The notes beneath the pieces are model-generated. The model made no database searches, was not told the origin of the DNA, and was given only the letters and a program-made list of their open reading frames with translations. Both the position numbers and the translations under genes were made by a program. From NCBI RefSeq assembly GCF_000442275.2, contig NZ_KE557306.1:381342-445341 (forward strand): a stretch of 64,000 nt of DNA, in the 5' to 3' direction. The stretch comes from Litoreibacter arenae DSM 19593 (GTDB taxonomy: Bacteria; Pseudomonadota; Alphaproteobacteria; Rhodobacterales; Rhodobacteraceae). This document shows positions 37,172 to 47,712 of the stretch, one piece after another; position 1 is the first letter of the stretch, and every line of letters begins with the position of its first letter.

Positions 37172-38386
37172 ATGCTTCGCAGACTTCACGCAGATCAGCC
37201 TGACAGCTTCGCCTTCACCTCCGCCAATCAGGCGTGGGCAGAGGCGCAGATCACCAAATACCCCGAGGGGCGTCAGGCTTCGGCGATCATTCCGCTGCTC
37301 TGGCGCGCCCAAGAGCAGGAGGGCTGGTTGAGCCGTCCCGCCATCGAGCATGTCGCTGAAATGCTGGGCATGGCTTATATCCGGGCACTGGAGGTGGCTA
37401 CTTTCTACTTCATGTTCCAGCTGCAACCTGTTGGTTCCGTTGCGCATATCCAGATTTGTGGCACCACGTCCTGCATGATTTGCGGGGCTGAGGATTTGAT
37501 CGGCGTTTGCAAGGAAAAGATCGCGCCAAAGCCGCATCAGCTGTCCGCTGACGGCAAGTTTTCGTGGGAGGAGGTCGAGTGCCTCGGGGCCTGTGCGAAC
37601 GCGCCGATGGCGCAGATTGGCAAGGATTACTACGAAGATCTGACCGCCAAACGCATGGGCGAGATCATCGACGGGCTGGCCAATGGCCAGGTGCCGACAC
37701 CCGGCCCCCAAAATGGCCGCTACGCCGCCGAACCGCTGAAGGGGCTGACCTCGCTCACCGAATACGACAGCGGTAAGACGCAATACAACGCCTCCGTGCA
37801 ACTTGCCACCGACTTGGGCGATACGATCAAACGCATCGACGGCACCGAAGTGCCGCTGCTGACCCCATGGCAACATGGCGGCAAGGAAAAGTCCGGCAAA
37901 TCCGTGCCGTCCAAACCCAAGGAAGCCGAGCTGAAGCAGAACGCCCGCGAGGTGGACGAGACCAAGGATGAGGTAGACGCCAAGAAGGTCGCTCGACCAA
38001 AAACGGGCAAGGTTGCCCCGAAATCCGAGACAGGCGGCAAGGCGACGGACGGGGAATTCAACCCCACGCCGAAGACCGCAGCCAAGCCGGTCGCGGCAGA
38101 TGGCAAGCCCGAGATGCTGACACAGGCGCGCGACGGCGGGCCGGATGATCTCAAGATGATCAAGGGCGTGGGTCCGAAACTCGAACAGCTTTTACACAAG
38201 TTGGGCGTGTTCCATTTCGACCAGATCGCATCATGGCGCAAAAAGGAAGTCGCGTGGGTCGACGAAAACCTCGAAGGTTTCAAAGGCCGCGTATCCCGTG
38301 ACGAGTGGGTGAAGCAAGCCAAGGTGCTGGCCAAGGGTGGCACCACGGAATTTTCGGGTCGGGTCAAAAAAGGCGGCGTCTACTAG
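37172..38386 (+). CDS. nuoE: NADH-quinone oxidoreductase subunit E with C-terminal helix-hairpin-helix-type extension
   Basis: 404 residues, about twice the usual NuoE. Residues 1-190 are the 24-kDa-type subunit with the 2Fe-2S ligands C96 and C101 (CGTTSC) and C137 and C141 (CLGAC). Residues about 200-308 are a lysine-, glutamate- and proline-rich linker. Residues 309-404 form an extra domain with the hairpin signature [17 protein letters not shown], then [14 protein letters not shown] and a basic GGVY end. The same domain ends the next gene, about 81 of 96 residues identical by my alignment. The extension does not interrupt the frame and is not a known electron-transfer element. Confidence 0.93.
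38096..38383 (+). repeat. First copy of the duplicated HhH-type domain (in nuoE)
   Basis: Codes for NuoE residues 309-404 and is repeated in diverged form at 38926-39213. The two copies differ at many synonymous positions as well as about 15 residues, so this is an old duplication held under protein-level selection, not an assembly error. Confidence 0.85.
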
Positions 38387-38412
38387 TCTGAAACAGACGG
38401 GGAGTACGAAGA

Positions 38413-39216
38413 ATGGGACAGAACGATACTGGCGGCATGAGTTGCAAGAGCGTCTGGTGGCTTGCCGCGCTGGTTGCAGGCGTGCTGGTCGCCGCGTTGC
38501 TCATGTGGATGCGGGACACCGGCTTTATGATGGCTCTGTTCTGGGGGCTGGTCGTTTTGATCGCGGGCGGGTTTGCGCTGACATGGGCCTTTTGTCGCTC
38601 GGTTTCGGGCATGTCCGACGCCGCGTCCGCGACGCCTGCGGCCACTGCATCACCACATCCGGAAGCAACGGCTGCCGCGCCGTTGGCCACATCCGGGCCG
38701 ATCACCGAGCCCGCACCGGTTGCCCGTGGCGCCGGGGCTGCTGCCGCGACCCTGTCCGCGACCGGCGAAGCCACGGCGAAGGCCAAGGCCGAGCCCGAGG
38801 AGGCGAAGACGCCTGCGAAGTCGGGTACCGGCAAGGTGGCGACACCGAAGGCGCCTGCGAAAAAGCCTGCCGCCAAGAAGGCGCCTGCTAAAGCTGCTCC
38901 GAAGGCGAAAGCCGCGCCTGTGTCGGCGGATGGCAAGCCGGAGCTTTTGACCGAAGCCCGCGCGGGCGGTGCCGATGATCTCAAACAGATCAAGGGCGTC
39001 GGACCCAAGCTGGAAGGCATGCTGCACAAGATGGGCGTGTTCCACTTTGATCAAATTGCCTCGTGGCGCAAAAAGGAAGTGGAGTGGGTCGACAACAATC
39101 TCGAAGGCTTCAAGGGCCGCGTCTCCCGCGACGAGTGGGTGAAGCAGGCCAAGGTGCTGGCAGAAGGCGGCCAGACGGAGTTTTCGAAGAAGGTTAGAAA
39201 GGGTGGGGTCTATTGA
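38413..39216 (+). CDS. Two-TM protein with the same C-terminal HhH-type domain as NuoE
   Basis: A 267-residue protein 26 bases after nuoE. Two transmembrane helices (about 15-33 and 38-60) lead to a long low-complexity Ala/Pro/Lys linker (about 68-170). The C-terminal domain (172-267) carries [17 protein letters not shown] and [16 protein letters not shown] and ends GGVY like NuoE. Helix-hairpin-helix domains usually bind DNA or mediate protein contacts. Here the domain hangs from the membrane on a flexible tether beside complex I, so an assembly or docking role is an attractive inference. Confidence 0.85.
   Translation: MGQNDTGGMSCKSVWWLAALVAGVLVAALLMWMRDTGFMMALFWGLVVLIAGGFALTWAFCRSVSGMSDAASATPAATASPHPEATAAAPLATSGPITEPAPVARGAGAAAATLSATGEATAKAKAEPEEAKTPAKSGTGKVATPKAPAKKPAAKKAPAKAAPKAKAAPVSADGKPELLTEARAGGADDLKQIKGVGPKLEGMLHKMGVFHFDQIASWRKKEVEWVDNNLEGFKGRVSRDEWVKQAKVLAEGGQTEFSKKVRKGGVY
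38926..39213 (+). repeat. Second copy of the duplicated HhH-type domain
   Basis: Codes for residues 172-267 of the two-TM protein; partner of 38096-38383 in nuoE. Confidence 0.85.
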
Positions 39217-41486: not shown

Positions 41487-41582
41487 ATGTCGAGCGTAGC
41501 GAAATACAGACCCCTTGCCGCAGCCGCCTCTTTGGTGGCTGCCCCGTGCGCGACCTCCGGTGGCAAGGCGGTGAGGGCATGA
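41487..41582 (+). CDS. Possible 31-residue micro-ORF coupled to the DUF3291 gene
   Basis: ATG at 41487 runs to a TGA whose last codon overlaps the ATG of the DUF3291 gene (ATGA). The peptide has a hydrophobic alanine-rich centre (LAAAASLVAAPC) like a degenerate export signal. GGGA precedes the ATG closely. It may be a leader used for translational coupling, or chance. Confidence 0.3.
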   Translation: MSSVAKYRPLAAAASLVAAPCATSGGKAVRA

Positions 41583-42064
41583 AGGGCCACCATCTTGCAG
41601 AGCTGAACGTAGGCCGCCTGCTTGCTCCCGTGGGTGATCCTCGCGTGGCCGAGTTCATCGACAATATCGAGCGGATCAACTCTATGGGCAAACGCATGCC
41701 GGGGTTCGTGTGGATGCTGGAAGGCTCCGGTGCGCCAGGCGCGACAGAACATTCGATCGACGGCGATGCGCTCTACGTGCCGAACCTGACCGTTTGGGAA
41801 AGCGCCGAGGCGTTGCAAACCTTCGTCTGGGGCACGGTACACAAGAAATTCTACGAAAAGCGCCAAGAGTGGTTCGAGGTGCTGGGCAAAATGCACTTCG
41901 TCATGTGGTGGGTGCCGGTTGGGCATGAACCAACACTCGCCGAGGCGCTGGAGAGACTTGAGATGCTGCGGGAGCAGGGCGACAGCCCCGACGCCTTCGG
42001 CTGGGACTATTTGAAAGACGCGACCATGTGGAAGACACATGGCTGCCAAGTGGCTGCGGAGTAA
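41579..42064 (+). CDS. DUF3291 domain protein embedded before nuoG
   Basis: A 161-residue soluble protein with the DUF3291 pattern: HHLAELNVGRLLAPVGDPRV at the start, FVWMLEG near residue 42, LTVWESAEALQTFVWGTVH and FVMWWVPVGHEPTLAEALERL. This is an alpha-beta barrel family related to antibiotic-monooxygenase-like folds, but its function is unknown. The start at 41579 overlaps a tiny upstream ORF; the longer frame from 41546 adds 11 residues. It ends 3 bases before nuoG, so it is in the complex I operon, though no link to complex I is known. Confidence 0.8.
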   Translation: MKGHHLAELNVGRLLAPVGDPRVAEFIDNIERINSMGKRMPGFVWMLEGSGAPGATEHSIDGDALYVPNLTVWESAEALQTFVWGTVHKKFYEKRQEWFEVLGKMHFVMWWVPVGHEPTLAEALERLEMLREQGDSPDAFGWDYLKDATMWKTHGCQVAAE

Positions 42065-42067
42065 CGC

Positions 42068-44083
42068 ATGAGCGACCTAAAGAAAGTAATCATCGACGGC
42101 AAAGAGGTCGAGTGTGACGGGGCGATGACCCTCATTCAGGCTTGCGAGCAAGCTGGCGTCGAGGTGCCGCGTTTTTGCTATCACGAGCGCCTGACCATTG
42201 CTGGCAACTGCCGCATGTGTCTGGTCGAAGTGGTCGGCGGCCCGCCCAAGCCCGCCGCGTCTTGTGCGATGCAGGTGCGTGACTTGCGCCCCGGTCCCGA
42301 AGGCCAGCCGCCCGTGGTTAAAACCAACTCGCCCATGGTGAAGAAGGCCCGCGAAGGGGTGATGGAGTTCCTGCTCATCAACCACCCGCTGGATTGCCCG
42401 ATTTGTGACCAAGGCGGCGAATGCGACCTGCAAGACCAAGCGATGGCTTACGGCGTTGACTTCTCCCGCTACCGCGAGCCGAAGCGCGCGACGGACGATC
42501 TGGACCTCGGCCCGCTGGTCGAGACCCACATGACGCGCTGCATTTCCTGCACCCGCTGCGTGCGCTTCACCACGGAAGTCGCGGGTATTCACACGATGGG
42601 CCAGACCGGTCGCGGCGAGGATGCCGAGATTACGTCCTATCTGGGCGAGACGCTGAATTCCAACCTGCAAGGCAACATCATTGACTTGTGCCCCGTTGGC
42701 GCTTTGGTCTCGAAGCCTTATGCCTTTACGGCGCGGCCTTGGGAGTTGACCAAAACCGAGTCCATCGACGTGATGGACGCCCTTGGGTCCAGCATTCGCG
42801 TGGACACCAAAGGTCGTGAAGTCATGCGTTTCCTGCCGCGTAACCATGACGGGGTGAACGAGGAATGGATTTCCGACAAGACCCGCTTCGTGTGGGACGG
42901 CTTGCGCCGCCAACGTCTGGACACGCCCTACATCCGTGAAAACGGCAAGCTGCGCAGAGCGGGCTGGGATGAAGCCCTGAAAGCCGCAAGCGCCGCGATG
43001 AAGGGCAAGAAGCTGGCTGGTCTGGTCGGCGATCTGGCCCCAGTGGAAGCCGCGTTTGCTTTGAAACAGCTGATCGAAGGCCAAGGCGGCGTTGTGGAAT
43101 GCCGCACCGACGGGGCGAAACTGCCAGCGGGCAACCGCTCCGGCTATGTTGGTACCGCGCGTATCGAAGACCTCGACACTGCCAAGCATATCCAGCTGAT
43201 TGGCACCAACCCCGCTGTTGAAGCGCCCGTGTTGAACGCGCGTATCCGCAAGGCGTGGACCCATGGCGCGAATGTGGGGCTGGTCGGTCAAGCTGTTGAT
43301 CTAACCTATGAATACGCGCATATCGGCACCGACCGCGCGGCGCTGGAAGGCCTGTTGGAGCACAAATTCGACAAAGTTCTCGACGAGCCGTCCGTCGTCA
43401 TCATCGGCATGGGCGCCTTGGGCGAGGCCGATGGCGCCGCCGTTCTGGCCGCTGCGATGGAACTGGCCGAGAAGACGAACTCCAAATTCATGGTGTTGCA
43501 CACCGCTGCGGGCCGCGTTGGCGCAATGGATGTGAGCGCGGTGAACGACGCCGGTATGGACGGAATCAAGGATGCGGAGGTGATCTACAACCTCGGCGCC
43601 GACGAGATCGACATCGAGGCGGGGCCTTTCGTGATCTACCAAGGCTCCCACGGGGATCGCGGCGCGCATCGGGCCGACATCATCCTGCCGGGGGCGGCCT
43701 ACACCGAGGAACAGGCGCTGTTCGTGAACACCGAAGGCCGGCCGCAATTGGCGCTGCGGGCGAATTTCGCGCCGGGCGAGGCCAAGGACAACTGGGCGAT
43801 CCTGCGGGCGCTGTCGGCCGAACTTGGCGCAACGTTGCCTTATGACAGCTTGGCGCAACTGCGTCAGGCTTTGGTCGCGGAGGTGCCACATCTGGCGGGT
43901 GTCGACGAGGTACCCGAGAACGACTGGTCACCCGAGGCACGCGGCAAGCTTGGCAAGGCCGACTTCCGCCTAGCGATTAGCGATTTCTACCTGACCAACC
44001 CGATCGCCCGCGCGTCCGAGCTGATGGCAGAGCTGTCGGCCAACGCCAAGGCACGGGCCAACCAACCGATGGCTGCGGAGTAG
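42068..44083 (+). CDS. nuoG: NADH-quinone oxidoreductase subunit G
   Basis: The 75-kDa-type subunit, 671 residues, carrying a 2Fe-2S cluster ([14 protein letters not shown] and CRMCLVEV) and two 4Fe-4S clusters ([16 protein letters not shown] and [11 protein letters not shown], plus [11 protein letters not shown]). The C-terminal two thirds are a molybdopterin-oxidoreductase-like domain without cofactor, as is normal for this subunit. It lies 3 bases after DUF3291. Confidence 0.97.
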
Positions 44084-44089
44084 TATGAC

Positions 44090-44479
44090 ATGCGTACGCG
44101 CATATCCCTTCTGGGGGCGGCCATGCTAGTGGCCTGCACCCCGACCGAGGAGCCGACGCAGGAGGTTTTTGCGCCGGAATACCTCGGGATCGAGACCAGA
44201 CGGCTTGACGATGACCTCGTCAGCTTTCTGGTGCGGATGAAGGGCGCGCGGACCAACGAGGATGTGGCCGAGTATGGCAAATGCGCGGCGGCGCAGTATG
44301 CGCTGATCCGCGGCTTCGGATTTGCGCGACACGTGCGCACAAACGTACAGGAAGAGGGTGGCCTTTGGGCCGGAGATGCGGTTTACACCATCTCGGCTGC
44401 GCTACCCGACGGATTGCAAACAATCGACGCCGAAGTGGTGGTGTCCGAGTGTGCCGAAAACGGCATACCAACGGTGTGA
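44090..44479 (+). CDS. Small lipoprotein embedded between nuoG and nuoH
   Basis: 129 residues with signal [16 protein letters not shown] (lipobox LVAC, Cys16). The mature part has a Cys in [12 protein letters not shown], a central [17 protein letters not shown] beta-like stretch and a Cys near the end (VSECAENG), similar in layout to the lipoprotein at 41132. It begins 6 bases after nuoG and precedes nuoH by 22 bases. Function unknown; location argues for a periplasmic partner of complex I. Confidence 0.72.
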
Positions 44480-44501
44480 AACAAGAAGGCAGACTGACGA
44501 C

Positions 44502-45542
44502 ATGATGGAGTTTTTCACTCAGACCGGGTTGGGCATTTCCCTTGTGATCTTGGGCCAGTGCCTGCTGCTGACTGTGCTGCTGCTGATCAGCCTTGCGTTC
44601 CTGCTCTATGCGGACCGCAAGATCTGGGCCGCCGTCCAGTTGCGCCGCGGTCCCAACGTGGTGGGCGTGTTCGGCCTACTGCAAAGTTTCGCGGACTTTC
44701 TGAAATACGCGGTCAAGGAGATCGTCATTCCCGCAGGTGCGGACAAAACCGTCTACCTGCTGGCTCCGATGCTGTCCTTCGTGTTGCCCCTGATTGCCTG
44801 GGTCGTCATTCCGTTCAACGACGGCTGGGCCATCGCCGATCTGAACGTGGCCGTGCTGTTCATCTTCGCTGTTTCTTCGCTTGAAGTTTACGGTGTGATC
44901 ATGGGCGGTTGGGCGTCGAACTCCAAATACCCGTTCCTCGGCTCGCTGCGTTCTGCCGCACAGATGATTTCCTACGAGGTCTCCATCGGCCTCATCATCA
45001 TTGGCGTGATCATTTCGGCGGGCTCGCTGAACCTCAGCGAGATCGTGCGCACGCAGGACGGTGATCTGGGGCTGCTCAACTGGTACTGGCTGCCACACCT
45101 GCCCATGGTGTTCCTGTTCTTCATTTCGGCGCTGGCCGAGACCAACCGCCCGCCTTTCGACCTTCCCGAGGCCGAGTCGGAACTGGTGGCAGGCTATCAG
45201 GTCGAGTACTCCTCGACCCCGTTCCTGTTGTTCATGATCGGCGAATACGTGACTATCGTGCTGATGACCGCGCTGATCACGGTGCTGTTCTTCGGCGGCT
45301 GGCTATCGCCCATTCCGGGCCTTCCCGACGGGGCGCTGTGGATGATCAGCAAGATGCTGGTGATCTTCTTCCTGATCTCGATGGTGAAGGCCATCGTGCC
45401 GCGCTACCGCTATGACCAGCTGATGCGCATCGGCTGGAAGGTGTTCCTGCCGCTGTCGCTGGCATGGGTCGTTATTGTCGCCTTCTTCGCGCAATATGGG
45501 GCCTTCGGCGGGGCTTATGCCCGCTGGGCCGTGGGGGGCTAA
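44502..45542 (+). CDS. nuoH: NADH-quinone oxidoreductase subunit H
   Basis: The ND1-type membrane subunit at the junction with the peripheral arm, 346 residues and about eight to nine helices. Conserved cytosolic loops are [20 protein letters not shown], then [19 protein letters not shown] and [19 protein letters not shown]. The ATG at 44502 gives the normal start; the open frame from 44322 overlaps the lipoprotein gene. The first base of the methyltransferase-like gene follows after 6 bases. Confidence 0.97.
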
Positions 45543-45548
45543 TTAACC

Positions 45549-46274
45549 ATGGGCGTCGACTGCACTCTGTTTCAGCAATTGGTGGACCTCTCCACCCGCT
45601 TCCGGCCCTCGGGCCGGTCGTTGATGCTGGGCCGTCAGGCGTTCAAGATCGAGCCGCCCTTTGCGAAGTCCTACGAGAAGGCGCTGCGTCGCGCGGGCAT
45701 TGAGGAAAAGCGGTTCCATTTCCTACAGGAAGACGGCTACGCCGAGACCCTGTTCCGCAACCTCGGGTTGGGCGAGATGGAGACGATGGACTACGCGCCT
45801 TATGAGGGGCCGGTGATCCAGCAGGATCTGAACGAGCCGGTGCCGGCAAAGCTGCATGGCAAGTTCGACTTCATCTTCGACGGCGGCACAATCGAGCATG
45901 TGTTCAACGTCCCCCAGGCGCTGGAGAACGTGTTCAGGATGCTCAAGCCCGGCGGGCGTTTTGTCTCTGCCAACGGCATGAACGGCTGGGTCGGCCATGG
46001 CATGTACCAGTTCTCGCCGGAACTGGTCTGGACCTTTTGGAAGCGCAAATGCCAGTGCCTCGTGCATATCTGCACGGGCATCCACAAGATACCGGGGACG
46101 GCCAAGCCGCTGAACTTCCCCGACGCCGCCGAGACGGGGCGCAGGCTGCGCCTCAAGGGCATGATCCCCGAGGGGCGCGTGTATCTGTATTACGAAATCG
46201 AGAAGACCTCTGAGGAGATACGGGCCGGATCGGCCTTGCAGAGCGACTACCAAGTTAAATGGGCTGACGCATGA
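45549..46274 (+). CDS. Class I SAM methyltransferase-like protein embedded between nuoH and nuoI
   Basis: 241 residues. The part from about residue 92 looks like a methyltransferase core: [38 protein letters not shown] and [15 protein letters not shown], matching motifs II to IV of class I enzymes. The usual GxGxG SAM loop is not obvious; the equivalent region reads [13 protein letters not shown]. It may be catalytically altered. In mitochondria, methyltransferase-fold proteins (NDUFAF5, NDUFAF7) modify and assemble complex I, so an assembly role here is a reasoned guess from context. Confidence 0.72.
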
Positions 46275-46299
46275 TGCGGCGCCTTACGGGAGATATGAA

Positions 46300-46791
46300 A
46301 TGAGCGTGAGCTTCGGCCGTCGTGCCAAATACTTCCTGCTGCTGGACATGTTCAAAGGCATGCAGTTGGGCATGAAGTACTTCTTTGCCCCCAAGGCCAC
46401 CGTGAATTACCCGCACGAAAAGGGGCCTTTGTCGCCGCGTTTCCGCGGGGAACACGCCTTGCGCCGCTATACCAACGGCGAGGAGCGTTGCATCGCGTGC
46501 AAGCTATGCGAAGCCATCTGCCCCGCGCAGGCCATCACCATCGACGCGGAACCCCGCGACGACGGCTCGCGCCGCACCACCCGCTACGACATCGACATGA
46601 CCAAGTGCATCTATTGCGGCTTCTGTCAGGAAGCCTGCCCGGTGGATGCCATCGTCGAGGGGCCGAATTTCGAGTTCGCCACCGAGACCCGCGAGGAGCT
46701 TTTCTACGACAAGGAGAAGCTGCTTGCGAACGGTGACCGCTGGGAAGCCGCGATTGCTCACAACTTGGAAATGGATGCGCCTTACAGATGA
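46300..46791 (+). CDS. nuoI: NADH-quinone oxidoreductase subunit I
   Basis: The ferredoxin-like subunit that carries clusters N6a and N6b, 163 residues. Two 4Fe-4S motifs are intact: [16 protein letters not shown] and [16 protein letters not shown]. The N-terminus has the amphipathic anchor helix usual in alphaproteobacteria. Its stop overlaps the next ORF (ATGA). Confidence 0.97.
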
Positions 46792-47318
46792 GCAATGTCG
46801 CCACATATCCTTTCGACCCCAGCATTCTGGACGAGTTGGTCGACATGATCGGCGACATGGGAGCCGAGTTTGCAATCGGCACGCTTGATGCTGTCCTGTC
46901 GGAAAGCAACGGCGCGATCGTCTCGGAAGGCGTTACAAGGGATATGTACGAGGGACAGGTGATTACCGCCGTGGTCGCTGCGGATGCGGTTGCTGTAAGC
47001 CATGGTGAGGCGCCTTCCGTTCTCAACGACGCCTTGATGCAGGCCGTTAAGCCGTTCGCCGAAGACCTGCGCGACACTGATGGTACGCCTGATCTGGCCG
47101 CGAAGGCGCTTCGCGTGATCACCGACGGCACCAGCTCGATCTATGGCACCATGACCGGCGAACTCCCGACGCGGGCCGAGTTTCTGGAAATCACATCCAA
47201 GGTGCAAGACTCGGTCTCCGCTGCCAAGCAACGCAATCCCGGCGAGTGGGCTGAAATAACCGGTGATGGTGTGTTCGAAATCACCATGCACCCCGATAAT
47301 GGAGAAGCAGATGACTGA
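46788..47318 (+). CDS. Protein of unknown function embedded after nuoI
   Basis: A 176-residue acidic soluble protein with a helical look: [19 protein letters not shown] at the start, a central [17 protein letters not shown] segment, and [19 protein letters not shown] later. The pattern of an N-terminal GAEFA...LDAVL and a regularly spaced alanine-rich core recalls small DUF4259-like proteins, but I am not sure. The ATG overlaps the nuoI stop and the 3' end overlaps the CMD gene by 8 bases, so expression is tied to complex I. Confidence 0.65.
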
Positions 47319-47712
47319 CCCGACCAACCCTTTCGAGGCGATGATGAAGATGGGGCAGGAGATGGCGAAATCCATGAATCCCGCGCTGGAGGCGTTCACG
47401 CCAAAAGGTTTCGAGAACATGATGCCCACTATGTCTGCTGACATGATGGAGCAATTCATGGGCAAGGGGTTGAGCCCGGAGGGGCTTGATGCCAAGACGC
47501 GCCTGTTGCTCACGCTCACGGGGCTGACGATTCAGGGCGCACAGGCCGAAAGCCAGATCCGGATCACCGTCCGCCACCTTGTCGAGGCAGGGGCAACGAA
47601 ACAAGAGATAGCCGAAACCATCGCGCAGGCCGCGATGTTCGGCGGCGTTCCGGCAATGTCGAAGGCGATGGAGCTTGCGACAGAGGTGCTGGACGGAGAA
47701 GGAAAAGACTGA
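47311..47712 (+). CDS. Carboxymuconolactone decarboxylase-family protein embedded before nuoJ
   Basis: 133 residues: a methionine-rich N-terminus, then the CMD pattern [19 protein letters not shown] and [33 protein letters not shown]. The CxxC pair that gives AhpD-type members peroxidase activity is absent (the helix reads [10 protein letters not shown]), so it is more like the decarboxylase or non-redox branch. The ATG at 47311 overlaps the previous gene; its stop overlaps nuoJ by one base (TGATG). Confidence 0.78.

Follow-up and report, generated by a model that had tools for sequence, protein, structure and literature searches.

Proteins of the NDUFAF7/MidA family have a methyltransferase fold. 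In humans, NDUFAF7 is the enzyme that dimethylates the NuoD-type arginine of complex I (PMC3829151, in the accessible part of the text), and the corresponding arginine in the HRGTE motif of NuoD is dimethylated in Paracoccus denitrificans (PMC3750175 and PMC8042128, accessible excerpts). Complex I of Paracoccus also carries a PIMT subunit (CI-PIMT) with a methyltransferase fold, which was judged inactive in the accessible sections of PMC11522691; PIMT is likewise mentioned in Paracoccus complex I preparations in the excerpt of PMC8115037. Here we describe a further gene of this fold, hereafter nuo-MT, located in the nuo operon of Litoreibacter arenae within an analysed stretch of 64,000 nucleotides (the window). 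In open-licence PMC text we found no paper describing a nuo operon that includes a methyltransferase gene, and the accessible parts of PMC4859585 and PMC9696053 hold nothing on a gene of this type.

NuoD encoded in the window has the HRGTE arginine. The genome contains a match to the NDUFAF7/MidA family (PF02636) elsewhere (C7:44499-45155, E = 1.6e-53), and PF02636 is not among the six Pfam matches of nuo-MT up to E = 1. The two proteins belong to different families, although a link to complex I has been suggested for both. PF01135 (PIMT) is also missing from these six matches, and the three PF01135 matches of the genome lie outside nuo-MT. CI-PIMT of P. denitrificans resembles nuo-MT in its fold and in its setting, the complex I of a related alphaproteobacterium, but it is a member of the PIMT family that has lost its SAM-contact residues (PMC11522691, same sections), whereas nuo-MT keeps the pocket residues conserved in its own family.

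Position and conservation of nuo-MT

The initial annotation had placed a methyltransferase-like gene between nuoH and nuoI, and this assignment was confirmed. nuo-MT (45549..46274, plus strand) is an ATG-start open reading frame of 241 codons that scores above the cut-offs of Pfam Methyltransf_11 and Methyltransf_31 and for which we obtained an AlphaFold2 model. Directly 5' lies nuoH (44508..45542, plus strand, positions from tblastn, stop at 45542), directly 3' nuoI (46300..46791, plus strand, from the ORF list and locus comparison), whose translation contains what we take to be two 4Fe-4S cysteine motifs. According to the ORF positions, 6 bases separate the nuoH stop from nuo-MT and 25 bases separate nuo-MT from the start of nuoI.

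The nearest named relative, at 93% identity, is the copy of Litoreibacter halocynthiae (L051). Purifying selection between these two copies is strong (dN/dS 0.05), and values of 0.05–0.12 were found in four of five pairs compared, the fifth being saturated and giving no value. Third-position G+C of nuo-MT (0.84) matches that of nuoH (0.83) and nuoI (0.81). Searched against its own genome, nuo-MT matches only itself at E ≤ 10. The gene is real, conserved and unusual, and the observation lies far beyond chance.

Since a search of 44400-46800 detected no sigma-70-like promoter and only about as many terminator-like sites (three) as shuffled sequence yields (2.3), nuo-MT is probably co-transcribed with the nuo operon. 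A G-rich stretch at the 3' end of nuoH may serve as its ribosome-binding site, judged from what precedes the start codon in the window and in six loci.

The operon holds further reading frames. Between nuoF and nuoG lies a gene for a DUF3291 protein (41546-42064, E = 9.5e-50), which is patchy in relatives. A 176-aa ORF (46788-47318) between nuoI and a carboxymuconolactone-decarboxylase-like gene has only a sub-threshold Sulfotransfer_5 match; among 79 related loci it was matched in L051 and L105 and was absent from L097. The adjoining gene (47275-47712) encodes a carboxymuconolactone-decarboxylase (CMD) domain protein (E = 2.6e-16) and was matched in most nuo loci examined. At 37172-39216, nuoE, which carries a long extension, and the ORF next to it have similar C-termini, presumably helix-hairpin-helix-like.

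A methyltransferase fold with a divergent motif I

Of the Pfam models, Methyltransf_11 matched residues 90–139 with 29.1 bits (cut-off 21.2) and Methyltransf_31 matched residues 90–143 with 28.2 bits (cut-off 27). A further four Pfam models and seven NCBIfam models matched, all below their cut-offs; the family, which carries an LGR(Q/H) motif, is captured by no specific curated Pfam or NCBIfam model. Structure prediction, proposed as a check in the initial annotation, gave a methyltransferase fold: the AlphaFold2 model, built from 20 sequences, has a mean pLDDT of 92 and a pTM of 0.91, and VIA-align places it in the class I methyltransferase fold. Z was at least 8 for 882 of 1000 aligned chains, and the chains listed are mostly methyltransferases. 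The best solved relative was juvenile hormone acid O-methyltransferase 7ec0_A (Z 14.3, rmsd 2.5, 159 residues); with 9un4_A residues 92–140 align, reaching from motif III to past motif IV (E = 2e-6). Foldseek also retrieved methyltransferases (best E = 1.7e-6), with TM-scores that are low, 0.30–0.48 by query length among the 50 matches listed. OvsM gave one weak match, covering residues 24–143 (E = 0.49, search A1).

The N-terminal half of the model comprises a strand (23–27), two helices (36–48 and 66–71) and two strands (77–81 and 106–111); the C-terminal half comprises a helix (121–131), a strand (132–145), a helix (157–167) and two further strands (171–179 and 211–218). In the model, strands 1 and 2 are separated by 49 residues, which is longer than usual for Methyltransf_11/_31 methyltransferases. 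To the latter, nuo-MT shows 14% identity, and it differs from them in lacking the GxGxG loop. Where this glycine-rich SAM loop would follow strand 1, the family has LGR(Q/H): residues 23–30 of the window copy (45615..45638, plus strand; predicted strand 23–27) read RSLMLGRQ. The remark in the initial annotation that the SAM glycine loop was not obvious thus holds, strand 1 ending in LGRQ with G28 and R29 invariant in 84 sequences. Because GxGxG is missing, we file nuo-MT as a variant of the methyltransferase fold and not as a plain class I member. None of the five alignments listed for solved structures reaches motif I.

The acidic residues that class I enzymes carry past strands 2 and 3 and within motif IV are conserved as D81, D93, D111, E116 and H117. 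Strand 2 with D81, followed by DL 93–94, is encoded at 45777..45830 (plus strand); D81 and D93 are invariant, also in the 45 rows of alignment A2, and by analogy with the general fold D81 and DL 93–94 are presumed to be the putative ribose and adenine contacts. The motif IV region, residues 106–119 (45864..45905, plus strand), lies within the Pfam matches and contains the invariant D111, T114, E116 and H117.

Copies inside and outside nuo were compared in a set of 84 sequences. The main nuo group contributed 61 (window included), a second nuo group 4, and 19 are non-nuo copies; L042, L095, L116, L117 and 11 far rows were omitted. Conservation reaches 95% or more at 32 positions, the acidic pocket residues among them. 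G28, R29, D81, D93, D111, T114, E116, H117, H150, Q154, W164, Q231 and Y234 are invariant, and position 30 is Q or H, once N. The main nuo group is marked by F8 and L14 only, under a rule that requires at least 95% in this group and at most 20% in the 19 non-nuo copies and leaves positions in between uncounted. No respecialisation of the pocket in nuo copies was seen in the 84 sequences, and the conserved positions suggest that nuo and non-nuo copies share the same chemistry.

Patchy distribution and conflicting trees

In a sample of 198 genomes of the family, 34 matched nuo-MT at E ≤ 0.001. We counted the 20 that scored at least 110 bits, and excluded 14 weak partial matches. The copy is located in the nuo operon in 12 of the 20 (the window's genome included) and elsewhere in 8. 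nuoH, by comparison, was found in 191 of the 198 genomes against 12 with a nuo-located nuo-MT.

From a collection of named genomes the best 80 of 485 relatives were kept, giving 79 nearest loci; shares among these describe the most similar relatives and are not valid for all 485. Both nuoH and nuoI flank the gene in 62 of the 79, as they do in the window, and two more have nuoI and a contig end, making 64 nuo-linked loci; 15 have no nuo gene within up to 10 kb on each side. The nuoH match ends 5–35 bases from the methyltransferase match in loci of the order nuoH, nuo-MT, nuoI. None of the 79 is named as genus Paracoccus. One locus (L104) stems from a metagenome-assembled genome titled Blastopirellula (Planctomycetota), and its methyltransferase groups with Rhodobacteraceae copies, pointing to a transfer or a mis-binned contig.

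On the gene tree, nuo copies split into two groups. A single origin in nuo followed by purely vertical descent was rejected, as the nuo copies do not form one clade (AU test on 66 nuo and 21 non-nuo rows, with 11 far rows and L095 omitted; p = 1.4e-4). We also mapped the nuo copy on the NuoF-L tree calculated for 100 operons, 61 selected for having it and 39 without; 7 of these 39 were selected because a copy lies elsewhere in the genome. Of 122 loci, 22 that lacked some nuo genes were excluded, the 15 non-nuo loci among them. On this tree presence switches 18 times, at least 16 changes being forced by starred branches. Together with the 12 of 198 genomes above, this speaks against the NDUFAF5/7-like maturation role that the initial annotation had suggested; as a complex I maturation factor nuo-MT is possible but not favoured.

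The nuo-MT data reject the NuoF-L tree (delta lnL 1058, 60 rows). NuoH (360) and NuoJ (138), both part of that tree, reject it too, less strongly. Corrected for the other subunits, nuo-MT distances correlate with those of NuoH (partial rho 0.31) and NuoM (0.26) and not with those of NuoI (-0.02); the link to NuoH is as expected if the two genes were transferred together or co-evolved. The gap between nuoH and nuoI was also measured in 40 genomes that have no nuo copy; it is at most 19 bases in 26 and 105–796 bases in 14. These longer gaps contain open frames of up to 259 codons, none matching nuo-MT, and their occurrence in 14 of 40 genomes indicates that the junction accepts insertions.

Association with NuoH

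NuoH (44508-45542 in the window) occurs in this bacterial family with either of two covarying sets of residues at positions 30, 61, 64, 68, 244, 248 and 251, which we take to lie in TM1, the first amphipathic helix and TM6 at the quinone entrance. The set LVAVAIF occurs in 58 and AFFII[MV]V in 22 of the 100 operons, and the two types, called 1 and 2, change nine times on the NuoF-L tree. Type 1 was found in 54 of the 61 operons with nuo-MT versus 15 of the 39 without a nuo copy. Columns associated with nuo-MT (p < 1e-4) number 16 of 156 in NuoH and 0–2 in each of six other subunits. A subunit column predicting nuo-MT was nevertheless discarded: the nine strongest all lie in NuoH, and in independent pairs they are not significant. 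For the three strongest, 16 independent pairs gave a median of 4 with the gene, 0 against and 12 ties.

NuoH of the window is of type 2, that of its five nearest relatives of type 1. Across most of nuoH (44468-45367) DNA identity to L051 falls to 0.53–0.79, against 0.89–0.93 just outside, and nuoH of the window has apparently been replaced by recombination that spared nuo-MT. Other dips in identity to L051 (0.57–0.79) were seen in nuoG around 43118-43567 and singly elsewhere.

Relatives outside the nuo operon

Copies in Roseovarius amoyensis (L110), Yoonia (L113) and Roseobacter sp. CCS2 (L118) share 42–45% identity and the conserved positions with nuo-MT; unlike nuo-MT they lie beside genes for a GT2_4-type glycosyltransferase and a companion protein. 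We used these two proteins of L118 as tblastn queries (E ≤ 1e-5, within 10 kb); their counterparts in L113 and L110 are a glycosyltransferase with a GT2_4 domain and a companion without a Pfam match. Each was matched in 15 of 21 non-nuo loci and either one in 17, the four loci with neither being L044, L047, L116 and L117. A third protein, without a Pfam match and sulfotransferase-like by look, was matched in 3 of the 21. Neither query matched in any of the 64 nuo-linked loci or of 40 nuo loci without nuo-MT, which are weak controls because they consist of nuo flanks where zero matches are expected. The initial annotation had stated that homologues lying mostly in cell-surface or sugar-modification clusters would contradict its complex I reading; this is not so for the close relatives, with 64 of 79 nuo-linked, and is so for the non-nuo relatives, with 17 of 21 beside one of the two genes.

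Farther relatives have mixed surroundings. A relative on a Bradyrhizobium plasmid lies among genes for glycosyltransferase, GalE, ABC-transporter and FkbM methyltransferase, whereas others are surrounded by glycosyltransferases and transposases (Solidesulfovibrio), radical SAM proteins (Azospirillum) or flagellar genes (Pseudoroseomonas). Two of six far loci (L188, L181) have DegT, WbqC and glycosyltransferase domains next to them; the rest of the ten neighbours examined at these six carry further methyltransferase domains, one oxygenase domain or no domain.

The gene cluster also exists without nuo-MT. In L. arenae itself, C4 1.2126-1.2213 Mb (L250:1558-10253) carries a similar cluster with three glycosyltransferase matches, two companion matches and one match to the third protein, and no nuo-MT-type gene; G177 likewise has glycosyltransferase and companion matches without such a gene. 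The companion family is matched at E ≤ 1e-15 in 149 of the 198 family genomes. At E ≤ 1e-40, a threshold chosen after the data were seen and with counts made by eye, the companion was found in 7 of 12 genomes with nuo-MT in nuo versus 39 of 186 others (Fisher p = 0.007). When copies at any location are counted, the figures are 11 of 20 versus 35 of 178 (p = 0.001).

A phage or plasmid origin of nuo-MT was considered and rejected. Phage records gave no match at E ≤ 0.01, and a single PHROG methyltransferase family matched residues 103–138 only (E = 3e-4). Seven plasmid records matched 36–43% of the query, and the four examined have glycosyltransferase, radical-SAM or flagellar surroundings.

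Discussion

We tentatively prefer to read nuo-MT as an active methyltransferase of small molecules or glycans that lodges in the nuo operon, over a factor directed at complex I and over a non-catalytic protein. It would be a SAM-dependent enzyme that has the class I methyltransferase fold and a remodelled motif I, probably active and presumably binding SAM. Its substrate would most likely be a small molecule or, as only the gene neighbours suggest, a building block of surface glycans, and not a subunit of complex I. The gene may have inserted at the permissive nuoH-nuoI junction. Since then it would have been read with the operon and passed on by descent, with many losses and with exchange between species that in part included nuoH and presumably took place by recombination in the flanks. 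As many relatives that have complex I lack nuo-MT at this place and most of its kin outside nuo have sugar-transfer-like neighbours, an optional lodger is likelier than an essential complex I factor. Several observations run against such lodging: the nuo linkage of 64 of the 79 nearest loci is a strong bias for a mere lodger, glycosyltransferase and companion genes are found near none of these 64, 5 of the 12 genomes with nuo-MT lack the companion at E ≤ 1e-40, and the neighbours of farther relatives are mixed. The two nuo groups on the gene tree could reflect repeated recruitment to one slot.

Next in probability, and quite possible, is a lineage-optional complex I factor that methylates a complex I subunit or a quinone-site partner during assembly or acts as an accessory subunit; linkage to nuoH would then persist because the target is nuoH or one of the genes beside it. 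The gene order found in 62 of 79 loci with its short distance to nuoH, the frequency of type 1 NuoH in operons with nuo-MT and the concentration of associated columns in NuoH all argue for such a factor, and the PIMT subunit of Paracoccus, as described in the accessible sections of PMC11522691, is a precedent. However, a nuo copy occurs in only 12 of 198 genomes, against 191 with nuoH, the association with NuoH columns is not significant in independent pairs, and the window combines nuo-MT with a type 2 NuoH that apparently replaced its predecessor while the methyltransferase was spared. The distances fit NuoH best (partial rho 0.31, against 0.26 for NuoM), which may arise from linkage alone, and the 84 sequences show no respecialised pocket in nuo copies. 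More specifically, nuo-MT might be a SAM enzyme whose activity is directed at complex I itself, possibly at NuoH close to where quinone enters. It would then be an upgrade that is optional, horizontally exchanged and tied to one of the two NuoH residue sets; this we regard as doubtful. A structural or chaperone protein that has lost SAM binding, the second option of the initial annotation, would agree with the absent glycine-rich loop and with CI-PIMT, which indicates that such a loss can occur in complex I (PMC11522691, same sections). It is nonetheless unlikely: the odd motif I is common to copies outside nuo, the acidic pocket residues are invariant, which appears to disfavour this option, and CI-PIMT by contrast has lost its SAM-contact residues. 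It is very improbable that nuo-MT stands in for NDUFAF7 and dimethylates the arginine of NuoD. This residue is present in the window and modified in P. denitrificans (PMC3750175, excerpt), but nuo-MT does not match PF02636, and we discarded the idea because a PF02636 match is present elsewhere in the genome. The latter, together with the restriction of nuo-specific positions to F8 and L14, also tells against the NDUFAF5/7-like role of the initial annotation.

If nuo-MT did modify complex I, a core enzyme of bioenergetics would carry an optional change in bacteria, distinct from those made by NDUFAF5 and NDUFAF7 and testable in culturable strains of Litoreibacter, Roseovarius or Leisingera. If nuo-MT is not directed at complex I, which seems likelier, the gene warns against relying on operon position by itself: even a position found across many genera can stem from a permissive slot and exchange via shared flanks.
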